In this document: piece after piece, positions 3,054 through 23,316 of the stretch
How the letters are laid out: each line of letters starts with the position of its first letter
Numbering within the stretch: position 1 is the first letter of the stretch
NCBI GenBank assembly: GCA_943787365.1
Contig: CALSMD010000006.1
Location: forward strand, 137,984-201,983
Source of the DNA: an uncultured Flavobacteriaceae bacterium
GTDB lineage: Bacteria; Bacteroidota; Bacteroidia; Flavobacteriales; Flavobacteriaceae
Length of the DNA stretch: 64,000 nt
Reading direction: 5' to 3'
The notes under the pieces: model-generated
What the model saw: the letters and a program-made list of their open reading frames with translations, nothing else
Database searches by the model: none
Told to the model about the DNA's origin: nothing
Translations under genes and position numbers: made by a program

Positions 3054-3057
3054 TTAT

Positions 3058-9198: not shown

Positions 9199-10536
9199 TT
9201 AATTCACAAGCAATTTTTTAGTAATTGAATTTAAACCTTGATCCATTTTTACAAAATAAACTCCAGGATATAAACTAGAAATATTCAACTCTGACTTTAC
9301 AGTTTGAGCAGGAATGACTTGTTTGCCTAACAAATCATACACAGAAACACTTAAAAGCTCGCTTGAAGTCGTTGAGAATTTTACAATGCCATTGGCAGGG
9401 TTAGGGTGCATATTGACAAAAGTCTGAGCGTTGTCATCCAAACCTGCGGTTGGGGCTTTCCATAGGTAAATATTATCGTACCAAACATTTGTTAAGTTCG
9501 TTGTTGTAATTCCTATTTGTGCAACATCTGATCTGGTTAAATTGTTAGCTACCACGCCACCAAGAGAGGTAATATCGACATCTACAGAGACCCATTGGTT
9601 GGCAACCAATTGTGGGGTAGTGCTACCATTAATATTAACCTCTAAAGCAGAAACCTCCCCACTACCGCCAGCAAAATCAACTAATTTAAAATTAAATACA
9701 TCTCCGGTAAGATCTGTATCATTTGTATAAAAATCAAAATGTACATGTGTAAAACTACTTAAATCTTGTCTATCACTTTTAAAATCGATTCCATGACATG
9801 CAATCCCTGCATTTTTCTTTAGCGTATTGTTACTGGCTATCATTACTTCAGTTGCTGCTGTACTTCCGCACCAACCTGCATCGAAATTATCATATGTTAT
9901 ATTAGAAGAATATGCATCGCTATATATAGAAACAACATCCCCAGCTGTTCTTGCTGGTGGCGTGGGTGCTGCTACTGAAGGAGGTGTTGGACAAGCTGGA
10001 CATACTGAACCACCACAGTCTATACCTGTTTCATCTTGATTTTGAATACCATCGCTGCAGCTTGGAGCCGCGCTAGTAGTTAATGAAACATTATCATAAT
10101 AAACTCCATGAGTGACACCAAAACCTGCCATTAAAAACCCAATCTGAACATTACCATTGCTAGAAGCGGCACTAAACGTTGCAGTGTAGGTAGTCATCGT
10201 AGTCGTAAGACTAAAATCCTGTCTAAATTGATCATCCCATGCTCCTACATTCTGAATCGCTAATGTAATATTTCTAGCTACATCTGCTCGGGCATCGAAA
10301 GAAATGGTATATTGTTGTGCGTTAGTAAATGTTAAACTTCCTTGTACTAACTGATTGTCCCAAGCATTTCCTCCAGATGCGGTGGATGAGAATGCTGCTT
10401 CACCATTTACCACGGAACCTCCTGTGAGAGCCCAATTAGTGTCACCATTGGAAAAATCTCCATTGGTTAGTAATTCTGTTTGTGAAAACCCAATTGACGT
10501 AATCAATAGGGATAATAATAAAGTAATTTTTTTCAT
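9199..10536 (-). CDS. Secreted carbohydrate-binding-like protein with type A T9SS domain
   Basis: 445 residues. Signal peptide 1-18 (ITSIGFS|QTE); a CBM4/9-like jelly-roll module (about 20-152; LLTNGDFSNGDTNWALTGG, YYDNVSL); a cysteine-rich linker of the kind CSDGIQNQDETGIDCGG with CPACP, common in marine flavobacterial glycosidases; a second module (about 187-365) resembling the non-catalytic domain attached to laminarinases and other polysaccharide hydrolases (NVWYDNIYLWKAP); and a type A sorting domain (MHPNPANGIVKFS, VYDLLGKQV, YPGVYFVKM, KKLLVN). No catalytic domain is present, so it is predicted to bind sugar polymers at the surface. The true ligand is not visible. Confidence 0.85.
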   Translation of the reverse strand: MKKITLLLSLLITSIGFSQTELLTNGDFSNGDTNWALTGGSVVNGEAAFSSTASGGNAWDNQLVQGSLTFTNAQQYTISFDARADVARNITLAIQNVGAWDDQFRQDFSLTTTMTTYTATFSAASSNGNVQIGFLMAGFGVTHGVYYDNVSLTTSAAPSCSDGIQNQDETGIDCGGSVCPACPTPPSVAAPTPPARTAGDVVSIYSDAYSSNITYDNFDAGWCGSTAATEVMIASNNTLKKNAGIACHGIDFKSDRQDLSSFTHVHFDFYTNDTDLTGDVFNFKLVDFAGGSGEVSALEVNINGSTTPQLVANQWVSVDVDITSLGGVVANNLTRSDVAQIGITTTNLTNVWYDNIYLWKAPTAGLDDNAQTFVNMHPNPANGIVKFSTTSSELLSVSVYDLLGKQVIPAQTVKSELNISSLYPGVYFVKMDQGLNSITKKLLVN

Positions 10537-10882: not shown

Positions 10883-11218
10883 ATGAGCAATACCTATTAT
10901 GAGCCTTCCGATTTACGGAAATTTGGAACCATCACGGAATGGAGTGAAGAACTCGGAAAAAAATTCTTTGACTATTATGGAAGCGTCTTTGAAGAAGGAG
11001 CGCTAAGCGCCCGCGAGAAATCGCTGATTGCCTTAGCGGTATCGCATGTTGTGAAGTGCCCCTATTGTATAGATGCTTACACACAAGACGGTCTCAAACG
11101 CGGCATCACCAAAGAAGAAATGATGGAAGCAGTCCATGCCGGTGCTGCCATTGAGAGTGGAGCCACCCTCGTACACAGTGTACAAATGATGAATAAGTAC
11201 AAAAAATTATCCATGTAA
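10883..11218 (+). CDS. Arsenosugar biosynthesis-associated peroxidase-like (AhpD/CMD) protein
   Basis: 111 residues of the carboxymuconolactone decarboxylase/AhpD fold. The redox pair is KCPYC (Cys59, Cys62), followed by the usual helical stretch with His-Ala-Gly-Ala (AVHAGAAIESG). AhpD-like proteins reduce peroxides or disulfides with such a CxxC. This small subtype is known to sit next to arsS in arsenosugar clusters, and here arsS starts 3 bases after its stop. It probably keeps arsenic or a protein thiol in the reduced state for ArsS or ArsM; the exact substrate is inference. It is the first gene of the twelve-gene run. Confidence 0.88.
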   Translation: MSNTYYEPSDLRKFGTITEWSEELGKKFFDYYGSVFEEGALSAREKSLIALAVSHVVKCPYCIDAYTQDGLKRGITKEEMMEAVHAGAAIESGATLVHSVQMMNKYKKLSM

Positions 11219-11221
11219 TTT

Positions 11222-12277
11222 ATGCAATTAAAGTCCCTAAAAAAGCGTGACAATGTACTTGCCAATGCAAAACGTCAGTTAGAAGTTTTATCCAATGGAA
11301 TCTTTCAAGATGAGGAGCTTCCTACCTTTCGTTCAAAATTAAAAACTCTAAATCTGTTTCCATTACAACCAAAAACATTAGAAATCCTACAAATTAATGT
11401 AGGGTATATGTGTAATCAAGTCTGTGCACATTGCCATGTCGATGCCGGTCCCGACCGTAAAGAAATCATGACCCGCGAAACCATGCAACAGTGTTTGGAT
11501 GTAATTATAGAAACAGGAGCGCATACCCTCGATCTTACTGGCGGTGCTCCCGAAATGAATCCACATTTTAGATGGTTTGTAGAAGAAGCCACCAAAGTTG
11601 GTGTGAAAGAGATTATCGTACGCTCCAATTTGACCATCATTACCGCCAATAAAAAATACAACGATTTGCCTGAGTTTTTCAAAAAACATAAGGTCCATGT
11701 CATATCGTCTATGCCACACTGGACGGAGGGAAAAACAGATCAACAACGTGGCGATGGTGTTTTCAATGCCTCTATTAAAGCCTTAAAAATGTTAAACGCA
11801 GTCGGCTACGGCATGCCAAATTCTGACCTCAAACTCGATTTGGTTTACAACCCCTCAGGTGCCTTTTTACCAGGAAATCAGGCGGCTCTAGAAATTGATT
11901 TCAAAAAGGCATTGGCGTCAAAGTTTGACATTCAATTTCATCATTTATTTTCAATAACCAACCTCCCAATCAGTCGTTTTTTAGACTACCTCATAGCCTC
12001 TGAAAATTACGAAGATTATATGTATAATCTAGTAGAAGCATTTAATCCCGCCGCTGTGAACAATGTGATGTGCACCAACACCCTTTCGGTAAGTTGGGAT
12101 GGATGGCTCTACGATTGTGATTTTAATCAGATGTTAGAATTAAAAGTTGACAGTCCTGTTCAACACATTCGTGATTTTAACAAGGAAACTCTTAGCAAAC
12201 GTACTATTTGTATTTCGCAACACTGTTATGGCTGTACGGCTGGCGCAGGAAGTAGCTGCCAAGGAACAGTCGTCTAA
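11222..12277 (+). CDS. arsS: Arsenosugar biosynthesis radical SAM protein ArsS
   Basis: 351 residues. The radical SAM cluster motif is CNQVCAHC (Cys64, Cys68, Cys71), with the glycine-rich SAM-binding stretch DLTGGAPEMNPHF near 109-120. The C-terminal region carries further cysteines (TICISQHCYGCTAGAG, Cys330, 335, 338 and 346), expected for an auxiliary iron-sulfur cluster. ArsS family enzymes join the 5'-deoxyadenosyl group of SAM to dimethylarsenic, giving the dimethylarsinoyl-adenosine precursor of arsenosugars. The context fits: a peroxidase-like CxxC protein before it, ArsM four genes later. ATG start, 3-base gap upstream, 4-base gap downstream. Confidence 0.93.
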   Translation: MQLKSLKKRDNVLANAKRQLEVLSNGIFQDEELPTFRSKLKTLNLFPLQPKTLEILQINVGYMCNQVCAHCHVDAGPDRKEIMTRETMQQCLDVIIETGAHTLDLTGGAPEMNPHFRWFVEEATKVGVKEIIVRSNLTIITANKKYNDLPEFFKKHKVHVISSMPHWTEGKTDQQRGDGVFNASIKALKMLNAVGYGMPNSDLKLDLVYNPSGAFLPGNQAALEIDFKKALASKFDIQFHHLFSITNLPISRFLDYLIASENYEDYMYNLVEAFNPAAVNNVMCTNTLSVSWDGWLYDCDFNQMLELKVDSPVQHIRDFNKETLSKRTICISQHCYGCTAGAGSSCQGTVV

Positions 12278-12281
12278 AAAA

Positions 12282-12773
12282 ATGAAAAACTTAATTTTTG
12301 TAGTAATAGGTCTGTTATGCGTCAAGGGGTCTAGTCAAGACGCCATTAAAGAGGTGTTGAATAAATACAATGACCATTCTATCCCTTATATATATGTTAA
12401 TGAACTGAAAGAATTAACAACACAACCCCTCCTTTTTGATACACGTGAACAAGAAGAATATGACATTAGCCATATAAAGGATGCTATCCACCTGGGATTT
12501 AATGCGTTTGATTTTTCAAAAAGCACGAGCTTACCCAGTAATAAAAATACAACGATTGTGGTGTATTGTTCCCTTGGAATCCGCTCCGAAATCATTGGTA
12601 AACAACTCATTGCGCAAGGTTATACGAAAGTTTACAATTTATATGGCGGCATTTTTGAATGGGTCAATAAAGGCGAAAAGGTTTACCACAACAAACAAGA
12701 AACTCAAAAGGTACATGCTTATTCAAAATATTGGGGGAACTACCTATTAAATGGAACTAAAGTATATGAATAA
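12282..12773 (+). CDS. Exported rhodanese-like protein
   Basis: 164 residues from the ATG at 12282, 4 bases after the arsS stop; an upstream in-frame start at 12147 lies inside arsS and is rejected. Residues 1-18 form a signal peptide (FVVIGLLCVKGSSQ). The rhodanese domain spans about 35-140, with LFDTREQEEYDISHI and the active loop CSLGIRS (Cys96). Rhodaneses transfer sulfane sulfur, and related proteins reduce arsenate. A periplasmic or exported location would place it where arsenic enters. Its role in the pathway is inference from the operon. Confidence 0.88.
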   Translation: MKNLIFVVIGLLCVKGSSQDAIKEVLNKYNDHSIPYIYVNELKELTTQPLLFDTREQEEYDISHIKDAIHLGFNAFDFSKSTSLPSNKNTTIVVYCSLGIRSEIIGKQLIAQGYTKVYNLYGGIFEWVNKGEKVYHNKQETQKVHAYSKYWGNYLLNGTKVYE

Positions 12774-13377
12774 AAGTCTGATTCTTGTTTTTGTGAGAAA
12801 CCCTGAGTTAGGGAAGGTCAAAACACGGCTTTCTAGAACTGTTGGTGACAGCGCTGCCTTAAAAATATATAACATTTTACTCAGTCATACTGAATCTGTA
12901 TTAAATTCCATCCCAGTTGATAAAGTCGTATATTACTCGGAAGAAATTCAACAAAACGACTTGTGGAGTGAGACACTTTATCTAAAAAAAGTTCAAAAAG
13001 GATTGGATTTAGGAGCGCGTATGCAAAACGCCTTCGAAACGGCTTTTAAGGAGTTGTATGAAAAGGTGGTGATTGTGGGAAGTGATTTATATGATTTGAA
13101 TACAACTCATATTGAGGACGCTCTCCAGGCTTTAGAAAATCACGAGCTTGTCATAGGACCATCGCTGGATGGAGGCTATTATTTATTAGGAATGAAAGAA
13201 CTACATTCTGCTGTATTTAAAAATAAGCTATGGGGAACTGACTCCGTTTTAGGGGCTACTTTAAATGACTTAAAACAACAAAATGTTAAACTTTTGGAAG
13301 CTTTGAATGACATTGATACATTTGAGGATCTAAAAGCTCATCCAGAACTGTTAAAAACGATTAAAAAAGATGAATAA
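12766..13377 (+). CDS. TIGR04282-type arsenosugar biosynthesis glycosyltransferase (DUF2064)
   Basis: 203 residues from the ATG at 12766, overlapping the rhodanese stop (ATGAATAA); an ATG at 12751 is in frame but overlaps more. The fold is that of CofC/MobA-like nucleotidyltransferases (DUF2064): LILVFVRNPELGKVKTRL at the N-terminus, VIVGSDLYDL and GPSLDGGYYLLGM in the middle, ending DIDTFEDL. The family is named from its constant presence in arsenosugar gene clusters together with the TIGR04283 glycosyltransferase, but its reaction is not firmly established. It may activate or transfer a sugar phosphate to the arsenoriboside. Its stop overlaps the next gene by 8 bases. Confidence 0.88.
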   Translation: MNKSLILVFVRNPELGKVKTRLSRTVGDSAALKIYNILLSHTESVLNSIPVDKVVYYSEEIQQNDLWSETLYLKKVQKGLDLGARMQNAFETAFKELYEKVVIVGSDLYDLNTTHIEDALQALENHELVIGPSLDGGYYLLGMKELHSAVFKNKLWGTDSVLGATLNDLKQQNVKLLEALNDIDTFEDLKAHPELLKTIKKDE

Positions 13378-14182
13378 ATTTATTGAAGACACCTCAAATT
13401 ATCTCAAAGAAAAAGGCTTTGAATCGCCCGAGGTCGGAATCATCCTTGGCACCGGATTGGGGCAGCTTTTAAAGCACGTTGAGATCATTAAAGAAGTGAG
13501 TTACAATCACATTCCTAACTTCCCAACAGCAACGGTTGAGTTTCATAAAGGGAAATTAATCTACGGAATTCTTGAGGGTAAAAAAGTCATCGTCATGCAA
13601 GGGCGGTTTCATTTATATGAAGGCTATACGCTACAAGATGTTACCTATCCTGTACGCATTATGAAACAGTTGGGCATTACAACGCTCTTAGTTTCCAATG
13701 CATCTGGGGCAATAAATTTAGATTACAAAAAAGGAGAATTGATGCTTATTGAGGATCATATTAACTTACAAGGCGGCTCTCCCTTAGCATTTAAAGGCGT
13801 CGAACATTTAGGGGAACGTTTTGTGGATATGAGTGCCCCTTATGATGCCGCTCTCAATACCCATTTTGAGTCCATTGCCCTTAAAAATAACATTACTTTA
13901 CACAAAGGCGTGTATGTGAGTGTGGTTGGACCTCAGCTCGAAACACGTGCCGAATACAAGATGCTAAAACTCATGGGAGCCGATGCCGTAGGCATGAGTA
14001 CGGTTCCAGAAATTATTGTGGCAAATCATCTTAAATTAAAAGTAGCGGCTGTTTCTGTTTTAACCGATGAATGTGATCCTGAAAACTTAAAACCCGTTGA
14101 TATTTCGGAAATTATTGAAATGGCTACAAAAGCCGAACCTGATATGATCACCCTGTTTAAAGAATTAATAAAAATCTTATAA
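13370..14182 (+). CDS. Purine-nucleoside phosphorylase
   Basis: 270 residues, the trimeric type I family: GIILGTGLGQLL (phosphate loop), VMQGRFHLYEGY, VSNASGAINLDYKKGELMLI, GPQLETRAEYKMLKLMGAD and AVGMSTVPEIIVA, then SVLTDECDPENLKP near the base site. The enzyme cleaves purine nucleosides with phosphate to the free base and ribose 1-phosphate. In an arsenosugar operon it is a good candidate for removing adenine from the dimethylarsinoyl-adenosine made by ArsS, leaving an activated arsenoribose for the glycosyltransferases; that role is inference. The start overlaps the previous gene by 8 bases (ATGAATAA); arsM follows after 2 bases. Confidence 0.92.
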   Translation: MNKFIEDTSNYLKEKGFESPEVGIILGTGLGQLLKHVEIIKEVSYNHIPNFPTATVEFHKGKLIYGILEGKKVIVMQGRFHLYEGYTLQDVTYPVRIMKQLGITTLLVSNASGAINLDYKKGELMLIEDHINLQGGSPLAFKGVEHLGERFVDMSAPYDAALNTHFESIALKNNITLHKGVYVSVVGPQLETRAEYKMLKLMGADAVGMSTVPEIIVANHLKLKVAAVSVLTDECDPENLKPVDISEIIEMATKAEPDMITLFKELIKIL

Positions 14183-14184
14183 TA

Positions 14185-15153
14185 ATGAGCTACCTAGACA
14201 CTACCCACGACGTTTACAAAGAAGCTGCTCTCAGTCCTGATATTGGACTCTGCTGTACCACCAACCCCATTTGGGAACTTCCAGGGCTGAAAATCCCGAA
14301 GATTATGCAAGAGATGAATTATGGTTGTGGAAGCACCGTTCATGCCCGTGACCTAACCAATAATCCAAAAATATTATATGTGGGTGTTGGTGGCGGAATG
14401 GAATTGCTCCAATTTGCCTATTTCAGTCGTCAAAAAGACGGCGTGATTGGAGTGGATGTGGTCGATGAAATGTTAGAGGCTTCCAAAAAAAATTTCGCCG
14501 AAGCTGAAGCTCAAAATCCTTGGTTCAGTAATGAGTTTGTGAGTCTCAAAAAAGGAGATGCCCTCAACTTACCTGTTGAAGATAACAGTATTGATGTGGC
14601 CGCACAAAATTGTTTGTTTAATATTTTTAAGGTTGAAGAACTCAAAAAAGCAATTTCTGAAATGTATCGGGTGCTAAAACCACACGGGAAATTGGTAATG
14701 AGCGACCCTACCTGTGAGCAGCCCATGAACGACAGACTTCGTGAGGACGAACGTCTTAGAGCCTTGTGCTTGAGTGGAAGTATTCCAATCGCTGAATATG
14801 TGAAAATGCTCACAGATGCCGGATTTGGAACCATCGAAATAAGAGCTCGAAAACCCTATAGAATCCTAGATCCCCTTCATTATAATACTGAAGAATTAAT
14901 CTACATTGAATCGATTGAAGTTGCTGCCATCAAAGACCCAATGCCTACAGACGGGCCATGTGTTTTTACAGGAAAAGCAGCGATATATTACGGCAAAGAA
15001 GCCTTTTTTGATGATGAAGCAGGGCATGTTTTAGTGAAAAACCAACCCTTAGCGATTTGTGACAAAACCGCTGCTGCCCTGGCAAACTTAAACCGAAACG
15101 ATATCTATATTAGCGACTCCACCTTCCATTATGATGGCGGAGGCTGTTGTTAA
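14185..15153 (+). CDS. arsM: Arsenosugar biosynthesis arsenite methyltransferase ArsM
   Basis: 322 residues. A class I SAM methyltransferase domain (about 60-190; ILYVGVGGGMELLQFA, GVDVVDEML, FNIFKVEELKKAISEMYRVL) with cysteines placed for As(III) binding: Cys23-Cys24 (GLCCTT) and Cys48 (NYGCGS) before the SAM site, and CLSG later. The C-terminus ends in Cys-Cys (DGGGCC), another possible arsenic site. ArsM methylates arsenite to mono- and dimethylarsenic in the cytoplasm, and this subtype is the one paired with ArsS. Starts 2 bases after the phosphorylase. High certainty from motif and context. Confidence 0.94.
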   Translation: MSYLDTTHDVYKEAALSPDIGLCCTTNPIWELPGLKIPKIMQEMNYGCGSTVHARDLTNNPKILYVGVGGGMELLQFAYFSRQKDGVIGVDVVDEMLEASKKNFAEAEAQNPWFSNEFVSLKKGDALNLPVEDNSIDVAAQNCLFNIFKVEELKKAISEMYRVLKPHGKLVMSDPTCEQPMNDRLREDERLRALCLSGSIPIAEYVKMLTDAGFGTIEIRARKPYRILDPLHYNTEELIYIESIEVAAIKDPMPTDGPCVFTGKAAIYYGKEAFFDDEAGHVLVKNQPLAICDKTAAALANLNRNDIYISDSTFHYDGGGCC

Positions 15154-15165
15154 CCTAAACAACTC

Positions 15166-15870
15166 ATGAAACAGATCCACTTTTTAATTTGTAGTTTTCT
15201 TCTGTGCTTTTGTACTGCCAGTGCTCAAACTATCGACCATTCTAAATGGACGGATGTTTTACAAGTTTATGTCGCTAAAAATGGAAATGTAAACTATAGG
15301 GATTTACAAAATAATCGAATAGTCTTGAATGACTACCTAAATGATTTAGCCTCAAATTCTCCCAAAGACAACTGGAGCAATGCCGAAACAAAAGCCTATT
15401 GGATCAATGCTTATAATGCCTATACAATTCAACTAATTCTTGATAATTACCCCCTAAAAAGCATTAAAGATTTAAACGATCCATGGGATCAAACCTTTTT
15501 TAAAATCAACGGGGAAACGATGTCTTTGAATACCATTGAACATAAAATTTTAAGACCTATGGGCGATCCGCGAATTCATTTTGCCATTGTATGTGCCTCT
15601 GAATCTTGTCCAAAACTTCTGAATTATGCTTATGAGCCGGAGACTTTGAACGATCAATTAGATGAAGTCGCAAAGGAATTTATAAACGATGCTTCCAAAA
15701 ATAGTTTAACAGCATCTCAAATTACAATTTCAAAAATCTTCAAATGGTTTAAATCTGATTTTCCAAAAGGAGCTGCTTTTATTAACTACCTGAACAATTA
15801 CAGTACATTGAAAATTCACCCTGAAACAAAAATTAACTATCAAAACTATAATTGGTCTCTGAATGAATAA
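15166..15870 (+). CDS. Exported DUF547 protein
   Basis: 234 residues with a signal peptide (about 1-21; FLLCFCTASAQ) and the DUF547 domain: NYRDLQ, AYWINAYNAYTIQLIL near 75-90, and CASESCPKL with the paired cysteines. DUF547 has no agreed function; distant similarity to papain-like/transglutaminase folds has been suggested. It is a recurrent neighbour of arsenosugar genes. It sits 12 bases after arsM and overlaps the next glycosyltransferase by 8 bases, so it belongs to the operon. A periplasmic location is predicted; its role in arsenic metabolism is unknown. Confidence 0.85.
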   Translation: MKQIHFLICSFLLCFCTASAQTIDHSKWTDVLQVYVAKNGNVNYRDLQNNRIVLNDYLNDLASNSPKDNWSNAETKAYWINAYNAYTIQLILDNYPLKSIKDLNDPWDQTFFKINGETMSLNTIEHKILRPMGDPRIHFAIVCASESCPKLLNYAYEPETLNDQLDEVAKEFINDASKNSLTASQITISKIFKWFKSDFPKGAAFINYLNNYSTLKIHPETKINYQNYNWSLNE

Positions 15871-16567
15871 GATCAGTGTCATTATACCTGTTTTAAATGA
15901 AGCTAAAAACATAGGAGGCTTATTGGACTATTTGGTCCAAAATTCGAACGATCCCTTAATTTCAGAAATACTGGTCGTGGATGGTGGCAGTACAGATGGT
16001 TCTCAAAAAATAGTGTCTGAACTTTCAAAAACACAGCCAAAAATCATTGGATTAAACAGTCCTAAAGGACGTGCAAAACAAATGAATTTTGGAGCATCAC
16101 AATCCAAAGGCAGCGTTTTGTATTTTTTACATGCAGACTCCATACCGCCAAAACACTTTGACCAATACATTGTAGATGCCATGGATAAAGGATCAAAAAC
16201 AGGCTGTTTTAAAATGAAATTTGACAACTCCCATTGGTGGTTACAATTGGCAGGATGGTTTACACAATTTAATTGGAAATCATGCCGTGGAGGCGATCAA
16301 AGTTTATTTATAGAAAAAATAGCCTTTGAAGCTATAGGAGGGTTTAATGAAGATTTCGTTATTTATGAAGATAATGACTTAATTTATAAATTATATAAAC
16401 AATATAATTTTAAGGTACTTCCGTATTGGCTGACAACATCATCAAGAAGGTATCAATCCAATGGTATCTGGAAATTACAATTTCATTTTTGGATGATTCA
16501 CTTAAAAAAAATCTTTGGAGCATCACCCAAAACACTAGAAGCCTATTATGTAAAACATATTCTGTAA
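15863..16567 (+). CDS. TIGR04283-type arsenosugar biosynthesis glycosyltransferase
   Basis: 234 residues of the GT-A, family 2 type. N-terminal ISVIIPVLNEAKNIGGL, nucleotide-binding VVDGGSTDGS, the metal-site equivalent FLHADSIPP, and GGFNEDFVIYEDNDL near 160-175 as the acceptor/base region. This subfamily is found specifically in arsenosugar clusters. It presumably transfers a sugar onto the arsenoriboside or onto the final aglycone carrier; donor and acceptor are not known. The start overlaps the DUF547 stop (ATGAATAA), and the next gene begins 29 bases on. Confidence 0.9.
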   Translation: MNKISVIIPVLNEAKNIGGLLDYLVQNSNDPLISEILVVDGGSTDGSQKIVSELSKTQPKIIGLNSPKGRAKQMNFGASQSKGSVLYFLHADSIPPKHFDQYIVDAMDKGSKTGCFKMKFDNSHWWLQLAGWFTQFNWKSCRGGDQSLFIEKIAFEAIGGFNEDFVIYEDNDLIYKLYKQYNFKVLPYWLTTSSRRYQSNGIWKLQFHFWMIHLKKIFGASPKTLEAYYVKHIL

Positions 16568-16596
16568 CTTTGACTAACCTTAAATATCTATAACTT

Positions 16597-17016
16597 ATGT
16601 TTACCAAAAAGTCACCTAGTCTTTTAAAATGGAGTTTAAAATACTCCTTAAGTGCTGCATTTGCTGGCATAATATGTTGTGTTGCACCAGCAGTTTTGTT
16701 TATGTTTGGTCTTATGGGAGGCGTTTATGCAATCTCATTTGCTGATTTCTTTTACAATGATGATGGAAGTGAAGGAACAGGTTCTTTAATCCTCAAGGGA
16801 GTCGCTATTCTAATTGGAATATATGGCGTATATTCTTTCAGGAAAAAACAAAATCAATGCTCTATAGACCCTAAAAGAAAACGTAAAAATATGCTAATTC
16901 TTATCATAACCATAATTGTATTAGGCTTTGGCATATTTCTTAGTTTAGAGAAATGGTCATCATGGTATTTCGATACTTATATTGTGCCAGCTCAGCAACA
17001 GGAATTAAAGAATTAA
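16597..17016 (+). CDS. Small membrane protein, MerT-like
   Basis: 139 residues with three hydrophobic segments (about 15-45, 63-80 and 94-113). The first holds a vicinal cysteine pair in IICCVAPAVLFMFGLMGG (Cys27-Cys28). This matches the shape of the first helix of MerT-type mercuric transporters (CC..P.VL...G..G), which take up Hg(II) through such a pair. The overall size and three-helix layout fit too. The second MerT cysteine pair is reduced here to one Cys in the loop (QNQCSIDP). Since it lies inside the arsenosugar run, it may move arsenic or another thiophilic metalloid across the inner membrane. This is inference from motif and context; no experimental family is claimed. Confidence 0.7.
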   Translation: MFTKKSPSLLKWSLKYSLSAAFAGIICCVAPAVLFMFGLMGGVYAISFADFFYNDDGSEGTGSLILKGVAILIGIYGVYSFRKKQNQCSIDPKRKRKNMLILIITIIVLGFGIFLSLEKWSSWYFDTYIVPAQQQELKN

Positions 17017-17022
17017 ACTCAT

Positions 17023-17715
17023 TTGACCGAAACTATAACCGTTATAATTCCTGCCTATAATGAAGAAAATTCTATAGGAAACGTCATCCGAGACCTCCCA
17101 GATTTCGTACATGAAATTATCGTAGTCAATAACAACTCAACCGATGCTACAGAAAAAAACGCAAAGGATGCTGGCGCTACTGTGCTAACAGAATTTAAAG
17201 CAGGTTATGGTAATGCGTGTTTAAAAGGAATTGAGCACATAAAACAACAAAAAAAAACTACTGATATCGTGGTGTTTTTGGATGGGGATTATAGTGATTA
17301 CCCTGAAGAACTCACAAAAATTATAGCCCCTATTATTGAAAATGATATTGATTTTGTGGTTGGGAATCGGGTCAAAAACTTTAGAGAAAAAGGCGCGATG
17401 CAGCCTCAACAAATTTTCGGAAATTGGCTGGCAACCTTTTTAATGCGTGTGTTTTTTAAATCAAAATTTACAGATTTGGGGCCGTTTCGTGCGATTAAAT
17501 TTGACACCTTAATGTCCTTAAAAATGGAAGACCCTACTTATGGGTGGACGGTTGAAATGCAATTAAAAATATTAAAACAACAATTTACTTATAGGGAAAT
17601 CCCCGTAAGGTATCGCAATAGAATAGGAGTTTCAAAAGTTTCTGGTACGGTAAAAGGTAGTATATTTGCAGGAATTAAGATATTAACTTGGATAATTAAA
17701 TACAGTTTCAAATAA
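17023..17715 (+). CDS. Family 2 glycosyltransferase, polyprenyl-phosphate type
   Basis: 230 residues starting at TTG 17023, 6 bases after the previous stop; no ATG gives the full N-terminus. Motifs: ITVIIPAYNEENSIGN, VVNNNSTDAT, VVFLDGDYSDYPEEL (the DxD site), GPFRAIKFD and GWTVEMQLKIL, ending in a weakly hydrophobic tail. The layout resembles DPM1/GtrB-like enzymes that load a sugar on a polyprenyl phosphate, although a C-terminal membrane pair is missing. The TAATG overlap with the next gene indicates translational coupling. It could supply the lipid-linked donor for the GT-C protein two genes later. Confidence 0.85.
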   Translation: MTETITVIIPAYNEENSIGNVIRDLPDFVHEIIVVNNNSTDATEKNAKDAGATVLTEFKAGYGNACLKGIEHIKQQKKTTDIVVFLDGDYSDYPEELTKIIAPIIENDIDFVVGNRVKNFREKGAMQPQQIFGNWLATFLMRVFFKSKFTDLGPFRAIKFDTLMSLKMEDPTYGWTVEMQLKILKQQFTYREIPVRYRNRIGVSKVSGTVKGSIFAGIKILTWIIKYSFK

Positions 17716-19205
17716 TGCTATTAGAAATCATCATAATTTGCGTTTACTCTATTGCGCTCATACTTATATTTATGTATGCTTTAGCCCAATTGAATTTGTT
17801 ATTCAATTATATTAAATCTCAAAAAACCTCAAAAAACAGTCCAGAATTTGATTTCTCCAATGCTGACGAAATTCCTTATGTAACCATTCAACTTCCCGTG
17901 TTTAACGAGATTTATGTGATGGATCGCCTGTTAAAAAATATTGTCCTTCTTGATTATCCAAAAGATAAATTAGAAATCCAGGTTCTTGACGATTCCACAG
18001 ATGAATCTGTAGAGTCCACGGCTATTTTGATTGAAACTTTACAAGAAAAAGGTTTTGATATTCAACACATTCAAAGAACAAACCGTGAGGGTTTCAAAGC
18101 TGGAGCCCTTAAAGAAGGTTTAGTAAATGCAAAAGGGGAATATATTGCCATATTTGATGCCGATTTTTTACCACAAACAGACTGGCTAAAACGTACCATT
18201 CCCTTTTTTAGGGATGAAGCCGTTGGGGTTGTACAAACACGTTGGGGTCATATCAATCGAAATTACTCTGTTCTTACGAGAATACAGGCCTTTGCTTTAG
18301 ATGCTCATTTTACACTTGAACAAGTAGGAAGAAATTCAAAAGGACACTTTATTAACTTTAATGGAACAGCAGGCGTTTGGCGTAAAACTTGTATTATAGA
18401 TGCAGGAAACTGGGAGGGTGATACCTTAACTGAAGATCTTGATTTGAGTTACAGAGCTCAGCTTAAAAATTGGAAATTTAAATACTTAGAAGATGTCGAA
18501 ACACCTGCAGAATTGCCTATAGCCATCAGTGCTGCAAGATCGCAACAGTTCAGATGGAATAAAGGAGGTGCTGAAAATTTTCAAAAGATGATGCGGCGCG
18601 TTTTAAAGAGTAAAAACATTTCTGCCAAGACAAAATTACATAGCTTACTTCATTTACTGAACAGTACCATGTTTTTGAACGTTCTAATTGTTGGTATTCT
18701 AAGCATCCCAATGCTGTATATAAAAAATGAATATGCGCATCTAAAAATGTATTTTTATGTGATGAGCTTTTTTGTAATTAGCACCCTTATTTTCTTTATT
18801 TGCTATTGGTTTATGTACAAAAAATCACATGGCTCAAGTTTAAAAAGCTTTGTGCAATATATTGCTTTGTTCTTTACTTTTTTCTCAATTGCAATGGGCT
18901 TCTCTTTACACAATTCGATTGCTGTTTTAGAAGGTCATTTTGGTAAACGCAGTGATTTTGTACGGACTCCAAAATTTAACATCAAAGCACTTTCTGATAA
19001 TTGGAAAACGAATAAATATCTTAGAAAAAACATCTCTGTAAATGTTATATTTGAAGGCTTATTGATGCTCTATTATGGCTTCGGAATGTACAGTGCATTT
19101 ATCGTAGGCGATCAAGGAGGTGATTTTGGATTGTTCCCATTTCATCTGATGCTATTTTTAGGTTTTGGATTTGTGTTTTTCAAATCGCTATCTTCAAAAT
19201 TTTAA
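17715..19205 (+). CDS. Membrane family 2 glycosyltransferase, cellulose/mannan synthase-like
   Basis: 496 residues. An N-terminal membrane helix (about 1-25); a processive-type GT2 domain with VTIQLPVFNE, VLDDSTDES, IFDADFLP, GDTLTEDLDLSYRAQ (TED) and QQFRWNKGG (the QxxRW hallmark); then four or five membrane helices (about 320-495). TED and QxxRW place it with BcsA-like and beta-mannan/glucomannan synthase-like enzymes, which make and move a glycan across the inner membrane. There is no PilZ domain. It starts inside the previous stop codon (TAATG). In this operon it may extend a sugar chain on the arsenosugar or act in a separate envelope glycan; the substrate is unknown. Confidence 0.87.
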   Translation: MLLEIIIICVYSIALILIFMYALAQLNLLFNYIKSQKTSKNSPEFDFSNADEIPYVTIQLPVFNEIYVMDRLLKNIVLLDYPKDKLEIQVLDDSTDESVESTAILIETLQEKGFDIQHIQRTNREGFKAGALKEGLVNAKGEYIAIFDADFLPQTDWLKRTIPFFRDEAVGVVQTRWGHINRNYSVLTRIQAFALDAHFTLEQVGRNSKGHFINFNGTAGVWRKTCIIDAGNWEGDTLTEDLDLSYRAQLKNWKFKYLEDVETPAELPIAISAARSQQFRWNKGGAENFQKMMRRVLKSKNISAKTKLHSLLHLLNSTMFLNVLIVGILSIPMLYIKNEYAHLKMYFYVMSFFVISTLIFFICYWFMYKKSHGSSLKSFVQYIALFFTFFSIAMGFSLHNSIAVLEGHFGKRSDFVRTPKFNIKALSDNWKTNKYLRKNISVNVIFEGLLMLYYGFGMYSAFIVGDQGGDFGLFPFHLMLFLGFGFVFFKSLSSKF

Positions 19206-19223
19206 CTACTTATCCCCTGACTT

Positions 19224-20561
19224 GTGGAGTTTAATAGGTCAATCTTAAATTCAAAATACACCTTACTTTTTTCTAGTAGCTTAAGTCTTGTTTTGTATGT
19301 TGTATGGGCTTACGATTTGGCACGTTTTGAACATTTCAAACTTTTCACACTATACAGTATTCTATTTGGTTGTTATTACTTGATTTTAAAACAAGTCCAA
19401 TTAAAAGTGCAGTATTTAACCTATTTAGCAATCGGTTTGCGTCTGGTTTTTTTATTTGCCATTCCTAATTTATCTCAAGATTTCTATCGGTTTATATGGG
19501 ATGGAAGGCTCGTAGTATCAGGACTCAACCCCTACCTAACAACTCCAAATGATTTAATGGTTTCCCAACCAGATTTATTTCCACAAATGAAACTACTTTT
19601 TGACGGTATGGGGCCGTTAAGTGCAGGGCATTACTCCAATTACCCCCCTCTACATCAACTCCCATTTATAATGGCCGCAATCTTCGCTAAACACAGTATT
19701 ATAGGATCGGTTGTGCTATTGAGACTCTTATTAATTGGTGCAGATTTTGGCATCCTTATTTTTGGTAAAAAACTACTGAAGAAACTACAACTGCCCACAA
19801 AAAATATCTATTGGTTTATATTAAACCCTTTGGTTATTATTGAACTAACTGGCAACCTTCATTTCGAAGGTTTTATGCTGTTCTTTTTTGTCATGGCACT
19901 GTATTTCATACATGTCAAAAAATGGCATTTGGCTGCCTTTACAATGGCACTATCTATTGCGGTAAAATTAGTACCCCTATTGAGCCTTCCTTTGTTTTTG
20001 AATAAATTAGGCTGGAAAAAAAGCATTCAATTTTACCTCACTATTGGAGGTGTTTTTACCCTGCTCTTTGCTCCCTTTATAAACGGTGATTTTTTTGAAA
20101 ACTACAGAGCAACCATTGGACTATGGTTTTCTAATTTTGAGTTTAATGCGAGTTTTTATTACCTTCTAGATTGGGGGTTAGAAACAACCACAAATCTAAA
20201 ATTGATTCATGGCATGGGCATCATCGTAGTGAGTTTTATAGGATTGCAGATCAGCTATCAATTAATCCAAAATAAAACCAAAACAACAGCACTAATTCTC
20301 ACCGTTTTATGGGTCTTTACGGGTTATTATTTAATCTCTACTACCGTGCACCCGTGGTACATTATAAGCCTATTATTACTCTCCATTTTCACACCCTATA
20401 AGTTTGTACAAGTGTGGAGCTATACTTTGATTTTTAGCTATTTCGCTTACAATCAATTTAGTGTTGATGAAAACGGGTATATGCTCTGTTTAGAATACCT
20501 TCCTGTGTTGAGTTTTTTAGTGTGGGAACTAATTAATAAGAGTAAATTAAAGCATCATTAA
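19224..20561 (+). CDS. Multi-spanning GT-C-type mannosyltransferase-like protein
   Basis: 445 residues starting at GTG 19224, with about ten hydrophobic helices. The first outer loop has SQDFYRFIWDGRLVVSGLNP, the acidic Asp/Arg/Asp pattern of GT-C enzymes that use polyprenyl-phosphate sugars, and later YPPLHQLPF, LNPLVIIELTGNLHFEG and TTVHPWY. This resembles DUF2029/mannosyltransferase families. It lies 18 bases after the synthase-like gene and ends the run; its 3' end overlaps the convergent pseudouridine synthase gene by 15 bases. Likely transfers a sugar on the periplasmic side. Donor and acceptor are not visible in the sequence. Confidence 0.82.
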   Translation: MEFNRSILNSKYTLLFSSSLSLVLYVVWAYDLARFEHFKLFTLYSILFGCYYLILKQVQLKVQYLTYLAIGLRLVFLFAIPNLSQDFYRFIWDGRLVVSGLNPYLTTPNDLMVSQPDLFPQMKLLFDGMGPLSAGHYSNYPPLHQLPFIMAAIFAKHSIIGSVVLLRLLLIGADFGILIFGKKLLKKLQLPTKNIYWFILNPLVIIELTGNLHFEGFMLFFFVMALYFIHVKKWHLAAFTMALSIAVKLVPLLSLPLFLNKLGWKKSIQFYLTIGGVFTLLFAPFINGDFFENYRATIGLWFSNFEFNASFYYLLDWGLETTTNLKLIHGMGIIVVSFIGLQISYQLIQNKTKTTALILTVLWVFTGYYLISTTVHPWYIISLLLLSIFTPYKFVQVWSYTLIFSYFAYNQFSVDENGYMLCLEYLPVLSFLVWELINKSKLKHH

Positions 20562-21386
20562 ATTACTTATCTCCTGCTCTGTAAGGTGTTTCCAGTGACC
20601 TCTTGGCAAGTCTTTTTTTGTAAGAGGTCCAATAGATACACAGTCCATTTTAACAATCTCATATTTAAAGTGATCAAAAATCAATCTCAAAATGGTGTTG
20701 CCCGTATTTTTTATTTGAAGCCCAATTTCATTTTTAGACACACCTTCTATATAACTAATGGCCTCAACGGAAACTAGCTTTCCTTGATGTTTAAAACCTT
20801 CTTGAATACTTTTTAGATGTTCAAACTTCAAAGACTTATCTAATTCTATATGGAACAAACGCGTCACCCCATGTTTAGAATTCGTGAACTTGGCATGCAG
20901 TTGTTCATCATTTGTAAATAGAATCAACCCGAGAGAATTTCTTCCAAGACGTCCTATAGGTCTAATTTTTGCATCAGTCGCATTGGCAACTAAGTCCATC
21001 ACCGTTCGGCCTTTACCTTCACTGGTCGTTGTCGCAAAACCTTTGGGTTTATTTAATAGAACATACGCTTTTTTCTCAGGATTGATACGTGCACCATCAA
21101 AACGAACCTCATCTTCCAAACGAACCTTATACCCCATTTCGGTAACAACCTTTCCGTTGACCATGACACTCCCAATACTGATATGCATATCTGCTTCACG
21201 GCGTGAACACATTCCAGAATTTGAAATGTATTTATTTAAACGAATTTCATCGGAATTGGAATTTGCCTTTAGTTTTGGTTTTGAAAGCGTTGTCTTTTTC
21301 TTTGTATAAGACGTTTCAGGCCCCTTCAATTTTGAGGGTCTAGACTTTCCTATACGTTTATCTGAGTTTTTGTTCGCTTTTGCCAT
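20547..21386 (-). CDS. RluB/RluF-type pseudouridine synthase paralogue lacking the catalytic Asp
   Basis: 279 residues from the ATG at 21386, chosen because a TAnnTTTG promoter lies at 21400-21407; an ATG at 21413 would sit upstream of it. A basic N-terminal tail (1-45) precedes an S4 RNA-binding domain (about 48-95; IRLNKYISNSGMCSRREADM) and the RsuA-family fold (LNKPKGFATTT, RPIGRLG, LILFTNDEQL). The invariant catalytic Asp of GRLD is Gly148 (codon GGA at 20943-20945), and the later GRNRxVRR stretch reads NTGNTILRLIF. Fold and RNA-binding parts are intact, but the enzyme is predicted to be inactive as a pseudouridine synthase. It may still bind rRNA. Coding is uninterrupted, so it is not an obvious pseudogene. 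Confidence 0.85.
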   Translation of the reverse strand: MAKANKNSDKRIGKSRPSKLKGPETSYTKKKTTLSKPKLKANSNSDEIRLNKYISNSGMCSRREADMHISIGSVMVNGKVVTEMGYKVRLEDEVRFDGARINPEKKAYVLLNKPKGFATTTSEGKGRTVMDLVANATDAKIRPIGRLGRNSLGLILFTNDEQLHAKFTNSKHGVTRLFHIELDKSLKFEHLKSIQEGFKHQGKLVSVEAISYIEGVSKNEIGLQIKNTGNTILRLIFDHFKYEIVKMDCVSIGPLTKKDLPRGHWKHLTEQEISNLMML

Positions 21387-21399
21387 GATTAATTTTTTG

Positions 21400-21407
21400 C
21401 AAATGTA
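21400..21407 (-). promoter_or_regulatory. Promoter -7 element for the RluF-like gene
   Basis: TACATTTG on the minus strand fits TAnnTTTG and lies 14 bases upstream of the chosen ATG, which supports that start. Confidence 0.6.
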
Positions 21408-21441
21408 ACGCATTCATAGGCAATGTTTGTTATTTTTTTAG

Positions 21442-22350
21442 TTATAATAACTTTGACAGAATGAGCATTGGGTTTAATAAAATAATACTAAAAACCCCTA
21501 ACAAAATAAGCAATTTTAATAGATTATGAATGTGTACGTACTGACGTTGATTTTTTGCTAGAAATACAAGAATAGTAACAATACAAAGCAAGCTCACACT
21601 CCCATAAAAGAAATAGTCCATCCTCCCTAAATCATAGCTTTTCACCAAGTATCCTGTGACTAAAATATTAACCGTAACTAAAACTACGATCATAATTTTA
21701 GCAATTTTTTCTCCGTAAACAACGGGGATTGTTTTATATTCTAAGGAAAAATCACCTTTTAAATTTTCCAAGTCTTTTACCAGTTCTCGCATCGATAAAA
21801 TTAAAAACAAATAAAATCCAAAAATAAATATCAATCCACTGTAGTTTTTATAATACAGAAAGATTGCAAAAAAAGGAGTGATGGTTAAAATTGCTGAAAC
21901 CAAATTCCCGATAATGGGCATTTTCTTTATTTTATGTGAATAAAACCAGATTGCAAAAATATAAATTGAAAAGAATAAAACAGATCGAAATGACACATAA
22001 CTAGCAATGACAACAACAATAAAATTAATTATAAAATAGAGAATTAACTTTGTATTTTGACTTACGTATTGCTCTAAAGTTGATTTATGAGGGCGGTTGA
22101 TACTGTCTTTTTCACTGTCGTAAAAATTATTAATAATATAGCCAGAAGCAATGGCGCCTACTGTTGCTAAAATCAATGCAAAAAGAGAGCGATCCAACAA
22201 AATTTGAGAGAGTGATTGCGAGGGAGGTGCCATAATAAAAATAGCTGTAATGTATTGTGCAATAACTATGAGCACCAGATTAAAACCTCTTACAACTACA
22301 AACATGCTAAATAATTTTAACATCATCTGTTTTTGAGCTGGCGTAAACAT
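21442..22350 (-). CDS. UbiA-family prenyltransferase (geranylgeranylglycerol-phosphate type)
   Basis: 302 residues with about eight or nine membrane helices. The two Asp-rich sites of the UbiA superfamily are NNFYDSEKDSINRP (74-86) and VKDLENLKGDF (191-201), which bind the prenyl diphosphate through Mg. Flavobacterial members are usually annotated as geranylgeranylglycerol-phosphate geranylgeranyltransferase-like; the true acceptor may be a quinone ring or another small molecule. It starts 9 bases after mevalonate kinase, so isoprenoid supply and use are linked. An alternative start at 22326 (MMLKLF) is possible. Confidence 0.88.
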   Translation of the reverse strand: MFTPAQKQMMLKLFSMFVVVRGFNLVLIVIAQYITAIFIMAPPSQSLSQILLDRSLFALILATVGAIASGYIINNFYDSEKDSINRPHKSTLEQYVSQNTKLILYFIINFIVVVIASYVSFRSVLFFSIYIFAIWFYSHKIKKMPIIGNLVSAILTITPFFAIFLYYKNYSGLIFIFGFYLFLILSMRELVKDLENLKGDFSLEYKTIPVVYGEKIAKIMIVVLVTVNILVTGYLVKSYDLGRMDYFFYGSVSLLCIVTILVFLAKNQRQYVHIHNLLKLLILLGVFSIILLNPMLILSKLL

Positions 22351-22359
22351 AATAAGGGT

Positions 22360-23289
22360 TTAGAAGTTATAAACGACTTCTAGTTTGTGATCGATAAGTG
22401 CTTTTTGAGCGGCCTGAAAATCTTCAGTGAACCCAAGAATATACCCGCCACCGCCAGATCCGCAAAGTTTTAAATAATAGGCATTTGATTCAATACCCGC
22501 TTTCCAAATAGAATGAAACTTCTTAGGAATCATGGGTTTAAAATGATTTAAAACGACTTTAGAAAGTTGTTTGGTATTTCTAAAAAGGGAATTAACATCT
22601 CCTTTTAAAAAATCTTCAACACAAGCATCAGTGTGTTTGATGAATTGATTTTTAAGCATTGTTCTGAAACCTTCTTGCTTCATTTTTTCCATAAAAATAC
22701 TTACCATTGGAGCAGTTTCCCCAATAATACCGCTATCTAAAAGAAAGACTGCACCTTTCCCATTGGCATTTTGAGAAGGAATTCCTGTTGCTTCAATATT
22801 GTCTTTGGAATTTATAAGAATCGGAATACTTAAATAGCTGTTTAACGGATCTAAACCTGATGATTTTCCATGAAAAAAAGATTCCATTTTCGAAAAAATA
22901 GCTTTTAGTTTTAATAACTTTTCGCGCGTAAGATTTTCTAAAACGGTGATTTTGTCTTGGGCATATTTATCATACAAGGCAGCAACCAATGCACCACTAC
23001 TTCCTACCCCATACCCTTGGGGTATAGAGGAATCAAAATACATTCCAGCAGTGATGTCTTTTTCAAGCTGAACCAAATCAAACACTACTAATTCAGTATC
23101 AATATCAGAAAGATGCTGATGAAATTTATTTAAATTAAGGTTCGAATCTACTGCGGATGGACTTGTGTTTTCATCCATTTTCAAAGCACCCTTATAAAAA
23201 TTATAAGGAATGGAAAGTCCTTTAGAATCTTTGATGATCCCATACTCCCCAAAGAGTAAAATTTTAGAATAAAAAAGTGGTCCTTTCAT
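22360..23289 (-). CDS. mvk: Mevalonate kinase (GHMP family)
   Basis: 309 residues. N-terminal SKILLFGEYGI, the GHMP ATP loop PQGYGVGSSGALVAAL (90-105), HGKSSGLDPLNSYL (substrate/catalytic Asp region) and the C-terminal glycine motif CGSGGGGYILGF. It phosphorylates mevalonate to 5-phosphomevalonate in the cytoplasm. The divergence from textbook mevalonate kinases is typical of Bacteroidota, and the assignment rests on fold motifs plus adjacency to diphosphomevalonate decarboxylase. The gap to that gene is 27 bases and contains a TAnnTTTG element (23307-23314). Confidence 0.87.
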   Translation of the reverse strand: MKGPLFYSKILLFGEYGIIKDSKGLSIPYNFYKGALKMDENTSPSAVDSNLNLNKFHQHLSDIDTELVVFDLVQLEKDITAGMYFDSSIPQGYGVGSSGALVAALYDKYAQDKITVLENLTREKLLKLKAIFSKMESFFHGKSSGLDPLNSYLSIPILINSKDNIEATGIPSQNANGKGAVFLLDSGIIGETAPMVSIFMEKMKQEGFRTMLKNQFIKHTDACVEDFLKGDVNSLFRNTKQLSKVVLNHFKPMIPKKFHSIWKAGIESNAYYLKLCGSGGGGYILGFTEDFQAAQKALIDHKLEVVYNF

Positions 23290-23306
23290 TGGATTGACTT
23301 AGAGTT

Positions 23307-23314
23307 CAAATATA
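23307..23314 (-). promoter_or_regulatory. Possible internal promoter before mevalonate kinase
   Basis: TATATTTG on the minus strand, in the short gap between the decarboxylase and kinase genes, 18 bases before the kinase start. It matches the Bacteroidetes -7 consensus but may be chance in an AT-rich gap. Confidence 0.45.
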
Positions 23315-23316
23315 CA

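Follow-up and report, generated by a model that had tools for sequence, protein, structure and literature searches.

An arsenosugar gene run joined to a glycosyltransferase module in Flavobacteriaceae hints that an arsenic sugar may be displayed on the cell surface

Introduction

The dimethylarsenic used in arsenosugar biosynthesis is reportedly supplied by ArsM, and the radical S-adenosylmethionine (SAM) enzyme ArsS is said to have been studied by Cheng et al. in 2021. A review describes the formation of oxo-arsenosugars as involving a radical SAM enzyme that adenosylates arsenic, with a citation of the ArsS study (PMC12159101). In the literature searched, from which subscription papers were mostly excluded, no account was found of the steps after ArsS or of the bacterial destination of the arsenosugar, and no description of a gene arrangement that joins arsenosugar genes to a glycan tail. 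Here, we describe such an arrangement, a run of twelve genes in a stretch of 64,000 nucleotides (the window) from an uncultured Flavobacteriaceae bacterium (GenBank assembly GCA_943787365.1, contig CALSMD010000006.1, positions 137,984 to 201,983). Among relatives of this bacterium the glycan part of the run is kept whereas the arsenic part is variably present, a hint that an arsenic sugar may be placed on the cell surface.

A second described system with points of likeness is the methylthioxylose capping of lipoarabinomannan. PMC11127046 gives 5'-methylthioadenosine as the source in Mycobacterium tuberculosis, a decaprenyl-phosphate-linked donor and a GT-C enzyme, and calls the existence of this reaction outside lipoarabinomannan assembly unclear. 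MtxS and MtxT are named as methylthioxylose enzymes in PMC8780516. By analogy, the ArsS product may be regarded as the arsenic counterpart of methylthioadenosine. Likened by enzyme class from these descriptions, the window would share with the capping route a 5'-modified adenosine as the source, a polyprenyl-phosphate-linked donor and a GT-C enzyme. Of these classes, the purine nucleoside phosphorylase (PNP) exceeds its cut-off in the window, the GT-C enzyme is assigned by fold and the sugar synthase class of gene 10 by weak matches. The window differs by arsenic in place of sulfur as well as by an extra TIGR04283 GT2, a processive GT2 and a redox or MerT-like membrane protein. A lipid-linked donor and a GT-C enzyme, both predicted here, are also parts of the three-component extracytoplasmic pentofuranose addition outlined in PMC11127046. 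Among the families found for genes 1-12 there was neither a charging enzyme of the phosphoribosyl pyrophosphate-dependent or phosphoribosyl type nor a flippase.

Results and Discussion

The gene run consists of an arsenic cassette, a head and a tail

The run comprises twelve co-directional open reading frames (ORFs; Table 1). The ORF coordinates confirmed the tight packing described in the initial annotation: no gap exceeds 29 bases, and four pairs of neighbours overlap slightly. From gene 1 to gene 12 the spacings are 3, 4, -8, -8, 2, 12, -8, 29, 6, -1 and 18 bases, with the starts of genes 3 and 4 picked by hand; the listed start of gene 4 (12751) would extend its overlap with gene 3 to 23 bases. 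Promoter- and terminator-like sites in the run were not enriched over shuffled sequences (28 vs 37.2 and 9 vs 7.6, respectively).

Matches over the NCBIfam cut-offs for genes 1-6 and 8, and PF04784 (Pfam) for gene 7, confirmed the first identification of ArsS, ArsM, the CxxC protein, two TIGR-type glycosyltransferases, PNP, the rhodanese and the DUF547 protein. Genes 1, 2, 4, 6 and 8 exceeded the cut-offs of the NCBI arsenosugar models, and for genes 9-12 no arsenosugar model in NCBIfam reached its cut-off. With ArsM, ArsS, TIGR04169, TIGR04282 and TIGR04283 all present, the window resembles a known arsenosugar biosynthesis cluster, and an arsenosugar product is predicted from the genes. It differs from such a cluster in that a GT2/GT2/GT-C tail and gene 9 are joined to it, and in that some genomes have head and tail genes but neither ArsS nor AsSugarArsM.

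Gene orders in loci fetched from 69 genomes fell into three blocks: the arsenic cassette (gene 1, ArsS, ArsM), the head (rhodanese, TIGR04282, PNP, often a fatty-acid-hydroxylase gene, DUF547, TIGR04283) and the tail (flavin adenine dinucleotide (FAD)-oxidoreductase, NapH-like protein, genes 10-12). For these orders, only matches of at least 26% identity and 30% coverage were kept; the label GTA includes some distant TIGR04282-like hits (29-38%).

Table 1. Genes of the run, in window coordinates, with the matches on which their assignment rests
Gene	Predicted product	Block	Position	Strand	Matches and remarks
1	AhpD/carboxymuconolactone-decarboxylase-like CxxC protein	arsenic cassette	10883..11218	+	TIGR04169 196 bits, cut-off 120
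2	ArsS radical SAM enzyme	arsenic cassette	11222..12277	+	TIGR04167 444 bits, cut-off 300
3	rhodanese-domain protein	head	12282..12773	+	NF045521 189 bits, cut-off 145; hand-picked start
4	DUF2064/CofC-like protein, NCBI name 'arsenosugar biosynthesis glycosyltransferase'	head	12766..13377	+	TIGR04282 209 bits; PF09837, PF01983; PDB 3cgx; hand-picked start
5	PNP	head	13370..14182	+	NF006054 337 bits; PDB PNPs
6	arsenosugar-type ArsM (AsSugarArsM)	arsenic cassette	14185..15153	+	NF038099 570 bits, cut-off 400
7	DUF547 protein, signal-like N-terminus by eye	head	15166..15870	+	PF04784 103 bits
8	GT2, TIGR04283	head	15863..16567	+	TIGR04283 230 bits, cut-off 182
9	small membrane protein, remotely MerT-like	tail	16597..17016	+	occupies the place of the FAD-oxidoreductase/NapH-like pair of relatives
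10	DPM1-like GT2, predicted polyprenyl-phosphate sugar synthase	tail	17023..17715	+	PF00535 86 bits; AglJ TIGR04182 126 bits, cut-off 325; PDB 5mlz (dolichol-phosphate mannose synthase) 1.5e-5
11	processive membrane GT2 with Q..RW	tail	17715..19205	+	PF13641 76 bits; PgaC and CelA below cut-off; PDB cellulose synthase 4.9e-17
12	GT-C transferase, predicted user of a polyprenyl-phosphate sugar	tail	19224..20561	+	model pLDDT (predicted local distance difference test) 90; Foldseek PimE 8.8e-5; PF09594 22.6 bits, cut-off 25

The tail accompanies the arsenosugar genes in the relatives of the window

The occurrence of the genes was compared in 119 relatives (numbered G), a set that includes many incomplete metagenome-assembled genomes (MAGs); the Fisher values ignore kinship. 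ArsS over cut-off was found in 46 genomes, gene 10 in 54, gene 11 in 56 and gene 12 in 53. All 46 ArsS genomes carried gene 10, as against 8 of the 73 others (p = 4.6e-25), and within the family the figures were 45 of 45 and 6 of 27 (p = 3.8e-13). Near the window the tail thus accompanies the arsenosugar genes, as had been supposed. Of the 54 gene-10 genomes, the eight without ArsS over cut-off are G011, G016, G018, G035, G054, G069, G084 and G094, of which G011 and G016 have broken contigs and still show arsM; tail genes standing without arsS or arsM are therefore not the usual case among relatives. G010, a 73%-complete MAG without gene 10, was counted as ArsS-free, its ArsS match being truncated at a contig edge (294 bits).

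The distance between ArsS and gene 10 was at most 10 kb in 17, at most 20 kb in 30 and at most 30 kb in 34 of the 46 genomes. TIGR04283 and gene 10 lay within 20 kb of each other in 38 of the 41 family genomes with both in the fetched loci, a closeness favoured by the fetching of loci around arsS and the tail.

We tentatively propose that the tail builds an envelope glycan or glycolipid to which the arsenosugar is attached, so that the three modules would serve one envelope product. Envelope attachment is the likeliest single reading, and mere neighbourhood of the genes is nearly as likely. Attachment is favoured because of the family assignments, the constant presence of gene 10 with ArsS, their closeness within 20 kb, the exact alternation of gene 9 with a NapH-like protein, and the GT-C fold, which is nearest to enzymes acting on polyprenyl- or dolichyl-phosphate sugars.

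The glycan module also occurs without the arsenic cassette

In 31 chosen genomes, AsSugarArsM was found in 10 of the 11 with ArsS and in none of the 20 without. The remaining ArsS genome, G067, carries ArsS and gene 1, yet no AsSugarArsM was found genome-wide at E <= 1e-30. Seven of the 11 ArsS genomes and five of the 20 ArsS-free ones (G018, G035, G054, G257 and G269) have a TIGR04283 match over cut-off. G018 and G035 combine head and tail without AsSugarArsM or intact ArsS, and G054 has most of both blocks on three contigs. In G035 a broken C-terminal remnant of ArsS lies in two frames (locus L084 near 9725-10043), with head and tail kept. G257 and G269 show the order rhodanese-TIGR04282-hydroxylase-DUF547-TIGR04283-tail, the hydroxylase gene standing at the place of PNP, without ArsS or AsSugarArsM. 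Named records were covered by a scan in which the best 80 loci of 590 pattern matches were kept and the absence of arsS means absence within 10 kb. There, Flavobacterium frigoris PS1 (L169) has the order of G257 and G269; that of F. flabelliforme (L189) is similar, except that no TIGR04283 match was found. No arsenic genes were seen in either locus.

The NCBI name 'arsenosugar biosynthesis glycosyltransferase' thus lands on TIGR04283 genes of genomes without detected ArsS or AsSugarArsM, and since TIGR04283 exceeds its cut-off where AsSugarArsM or intact ArsS is missing, this label may be too narrow. These five genomes, together with the 111 of 176 gene-11 carriers of the phylum sample that lack ArsS, also speak against a tail that serves arsenic only. 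In Flavobacteriaceae the tail and the arsenosugar genes are linked, yet the tail is part of a wider glycan module that can do without arsenic.

The phylum sample comprised 395 genomes, searched at E <= 1e-50 for ArsS and E <= 1e-60 for gene 11, with three gene-11 candidates scored per genome. ArsS was found in 156 and gene 11 in 176 genomes, 65 of them shared. Because the share of ArsS genomes with gene 11 falls from 17 of 18 in the own family to 10 of 11 in the same class and 38 of 127 in the same phylum, the link between ArsS and gene 11 is strong near the window and fades with distance.

The blocks also separate from each other. ArsS and gene 1 stand apart from the rest in G028, G043, G049, G067 and G246; in G071 the split follows arsM, and hydroxylase, DUF547 and TIGR04283 remain with the tail. 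Between arsM and DUF547 of G049 (L116:11133-12251) there is a PiT-phosphate-transporter-like protein (by eye), a type of carrier that could let arsenate into the cell. The fatty-acid-hydroxylase gene of the head (PF04116) is found at L112:6227-7099, L113:15403-16275 and L047:4832-5731, the L112 copy being OlsE-like below cut-off. Its place in the head, and at the position of PNP in G257 and G269, is a hint of a lipid product.

The independence of the tail bears on the nearly equally likely explanation, in which the tail would be a separate envelope-glycan operon acting on ordinary hexoses. The arsenosugar genes would then be mere neighbours through shared regulation or ancestry and would make a soluble or phospholipid-type arsenosugar for detoxification. 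Consistent with this, the tail or gene 11 occurs without arsenic genes in several genomes of the family, order, class and phylum, and a GH113 gene (PF22612) lies within 10 kb in 56 of the 80 named loci. The gene 12 model is nearest to mannosyl- and glucosyltransferases. On a 66-row gene-11 tree the ArsS label is no more clustered than in shuffles: it requires 10-11 changes, at least 8 of them forced by well supported branches, and 255 of 500 shuffles were as low. A careful 57-row tree, which omits nine rows, needs 5 changes; neither tree is a species tree, and both contain long branches. Against mere neighbourhood, none of the 46 relatives with ArsS over cut-off is without gene 10, despite a separation of 160-590 kb in four of them, and rhodanese, TIGR04282, DUF547 and TIGR04283 stay near the tail in the ArsS-free G018, G035, G257 and G269. 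This head-tail argument is weakened by the ArsS-free G069, G084 and G094, which have no TIGR04283 over cut-off.

Several further observations weigh against envelope attachment. In 12 of the 46 ArsS relatives gene 10 is distant from ArsS, on another contig in 7 and at 37 to 589 kb in 5. TIGR04283 is over its cut-off in only the 7 of 11 ArsS genomes given above. Gene 11 is missing from some genomes with ArsS, namely G331 of the own family, 1 of 11 in the remainder of the class and 89 of the other 127 in the phylum sample. The tail stands without nearby head or arsenic genes in G094, G459 and G431, the last with ArsS on another contig. In split clusters, GTA and PNP follow arsS in G071, but the head or tail in G028, G043, G049, G067 and G246. 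Finally, PNP residues do not set clusters with ArsS apart from those that lack it. An alignment of 53 cluster sequences shows Asp at the purine site, shared by PDB entries 4lna and 4m1e, and Ile or Val replacing the 5'-site His, at positions which we take to correspond to the human numbering. These residues, alike in all 53 sequences, were therefore set aside as a sign of a 5'-modified substrate.

A third explanation, which we regard as unlikely, is that the run follows the methylthioxylose capping route with arsenic in the place of sulfur. A nucleoside diphosphate (NDP)-arsenopentose would be provided by PNP and the DUF2064 protein, gene 10 would load it onto polyprenyl phosphate and gene 12 would cap an extracellular glycan with it. 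Flavobacteriaceae would thus put an arsenic-bearing pentose on a surface glycan, and in their arsenic-free relatives the locus would serve for capping with a 5-thio sugar derived from methylthioadenosine; a redox or metalloid-handling step would be solved in two unrelated ways, by gene 9 and by the FAD-oxidoreductase/NapH-like pair. The predicted enzyme classes are together in one run, and G018, G035 and G054, which lack ArsM and intact ArsS, have genes of head and tail. A methylthioadenosine phosphorylase and a DUF2064 gene presumably also lie near MtxS. However, the tail of G094, G459 and G431 has no GTA or PNP nearby, its surroundings being the part of these genomes searched for them, which suggests another donor sugar, and the G257 and G269 clusters contain no PNP. 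The existence of such tail-only loci indicates that genes 10-12 can act on another sugar.

Genes 10-12 resemble enzymes of envelope glycan assembly

The 230-residue product of gene 10 is a GT2 by PF00535, as annotated initially. Its proposed likeness to DPM1 rests on the AglJ match below cut-off and on the match to dolichol-phosphate mannose synthase in PDB (Table 1), over which glucosyl-3-phosphoglycerate synthases rank (5.8e-9). For gene 11, the suggested cellulose or mannan synthase character was borne out as a likeness to PgaC and cellulose synthase with the Q..RW motif at residue 277, at scores below the curated cut-offs. Many genomes have this processive GT2 but no ArsS, so an ordinary sugar is its more likely monomer.

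The GT-C character claimed for gene 12 was upheld by fold. The model, built from 36 sequences, had PimE, Candida glycosylphosphatidylinositol (GPI) mannosyltransferase I, ALG3 (TMq 0.61) and ALG6 as its best solved matches, all of them, by entry title or as is established, users of polyprenyl- or dolichyl-phosphate sugars. Identity to gene 12 was 12-16% in the four alignments, and the score for GT87 (PF09594) stayed below the Pfam gathering cut-off. In a profile search against PDB sequences, GPI mannosyltransferase 1 was matched at 8.2e-5. Gene 12 is predicted to take its sugar from a polyprenyl-phosphate donor.

The initial annotation had inferred that the additional genes export or polymerise a lipid-linked arsenosugar or arsenoglycan. 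It appears very improbable that the arsenosugar itself is exported by the tail, or polymerised by it into an arsenoglycan. The processive GT2 with Q..RW within the run, as well as the remote likeness of gene 9 to MerT and NMN_transporter, would fit such a role. Against it, most carriers of gene 11 in the phylum sample lack ArsS, gene 11 is present without genes 10 and 12 in G040 and G060, and profile scans with NCBIfam and Pfam revealed no exporter family over cut-off in the run. Nothing found points to either export or polymerisation. The initial annotation is thus partly supported, being right in its observation and half right in its interpretation.

Gene 9 alternates with a FAD-oxidoreductase/NapH-like pair

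Of the 119 relatives, 44 have a NapH-like iron-sulfur membrane protein and 10 have gene 9, a 28% match in G007 not being counted. The two sets are disjoint and their union is exactly the 54 gene-10 genomes. This exact either-or is a new observation, and gene 9 is not a constant part of the run. In the loci of the 69 genomes, the NapH-like protein and the FAD-oxidoreductase occurred together in 51, gene 9 without the FAD-oxidoreductase in 8, and neither in the fetched stretches of 10. The 80 named loci contained the NapH-like protein in 67 and gene 9 in 7, both in none and neither within 10 kb in 6. The window and its nearest tree relative, G004, differ in this feature (support 100/97), and the 57-row gene-11 tree needs 5 exchanges (at least 4); in this tree rows without gene 9 were labelled NapH-like, and G170 was excluded from the change count and kept in the group table. 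We read gene 9 as standing in for the FAD-oxidoreductase/NapH-like pair.

The MerT likeness of gene 9 held in part. All eight homologues matched the MerT models PF02411 (best E 0.0049) and NF033556 (best 5.7e-5), and the CCxxP motif is conserved, with C27 and C28 invariant in eight sequences. These vicinal cysteines lie in the first hydrophobic stretch, which is what we take to be the MerT motif. However, the window protein reached only 14.6 bits for PF02411 (cut-off 32.9), and in Pfam NMN_transporter ranked higher (22.3 bits, cut-off 27.3; 7 of 8 homologues). Gene 9 also differs from the mercuric transporter MerT in staying below every curated cut-off and in having one conserved loop Cys. The fold of its model is unusable (pLDDT 59.7). 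The MerT likeness of gene 9 together with the reductase and ferredoxin domains of the pair suggests a step at the membrane that involves redox or metalloid-thiol chemistry. An essential role of gene 9 in arsenosugar export was rejected, since the gene is absent from 39 of the 46 ArsS relatives. In G055 (L047:7253-10705) a pyruvate-carboxylase-like protein of 1150 amino acids (by eye) lies between TIGR04283 and gene 9.

A possible route to an envelope-bound arsenosugar

If the arsenosugar is attached to the envelope, the route may be as follows. By known chemistry, ArsM would methylate arsenite to dimethylarsenic, and ArsS would attach a 5'-deoxyadenosyl group to give dimethylarsinoyl-adenosine. 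Every chemical step after ArsS, and the product itself, we infer from the genes. In the head, PNP may cleave dimethylarsinoyl-adenosine to arsenoribose-1-phosphate, from which the DUF2064/CofC-like protein may form an NDP-arsenosugar whose sugar the TIGR04283 GT2 would transfer. In the tail, the processive GT2 would build a glycan, and the DPM1-like GT2 and the GT-C transferase would add a sugar outside the membrane from a polyprenyl-phosphate donor. Membrane redox help would come from the FAD-oxidoreductase/NapH-like pair or, in the window, from gene 9. In the final step the arsenosugar would be joined to the glycan or glycolipid of the tail. The observations beneath this route are the modules, their linkage, the tail GT2 in every relative with ArsS over cut-off and the mutual exclusion of gene 9 and the NapH-like protein.

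The locus supplies candidate genes for the steps after ArsS in culturable bacteria and leads one to expect arsenic in a glycan or glycolipid of the envelope. Among culturable flavobacteria, Flaviramulus basaltis DSM 18180 (L161) and Gaetbulibacter sp. S0825 (L208) have most of the run. Relatives whose glycan locus has the arsenic cassette and relatives whose glycan locus lacks it provide a comparison set.

Assembly context and neighbouring genes

The source assembly has 2.3 Mb in 8 contigs and is 88.8% complete and 7.5% contaminated. An assembly artefact was rejected because G014, G015 and G017 share the identical twelve-gene order, which makes misassembly unlikely. The scan of named records gave Flavobacteriaceae and like records; the best match was a Formosa MAG (L150), whose contig of 8.3 kb keeps the order of the window from gene 1 to gene 11.

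On the right flank, a convergent pseudouridine-synthase-like gene (20547-21413) overlaps gene 12 by 15 bases. It was sought in eight genomes of the genus, and no empty site was readable in these: the ArsS-free G003 and G009 contain a 32-33% paralogue only, and G001 a match of 46 residues (76%). Prenyltransferase-, mevalonate-kinase- and decarboxylase-like genes (named by eye) come next (20547-24399 in all), and the same order lies beside the lone gene 11 of G060 (L079).

In many relatives (loci L039:7244-9504, L075:17476-19901, L123 and L124) a GH113 gene, a gene for an outer-membrane-like protein (POTRA below cut-off), a second DUF547 gene and a gene for a protein of 295 amino acids lie between head and tail. 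Upstream of the run, the window encodes two adjacent, probably secreted proteins (921-4815) with a near-identical first part and collagen-like G-P repeats, and a further probably secreted protein (7605-8732) with a sorting-like C-terminus and two near-identical internal repeats, all recognized by eye.

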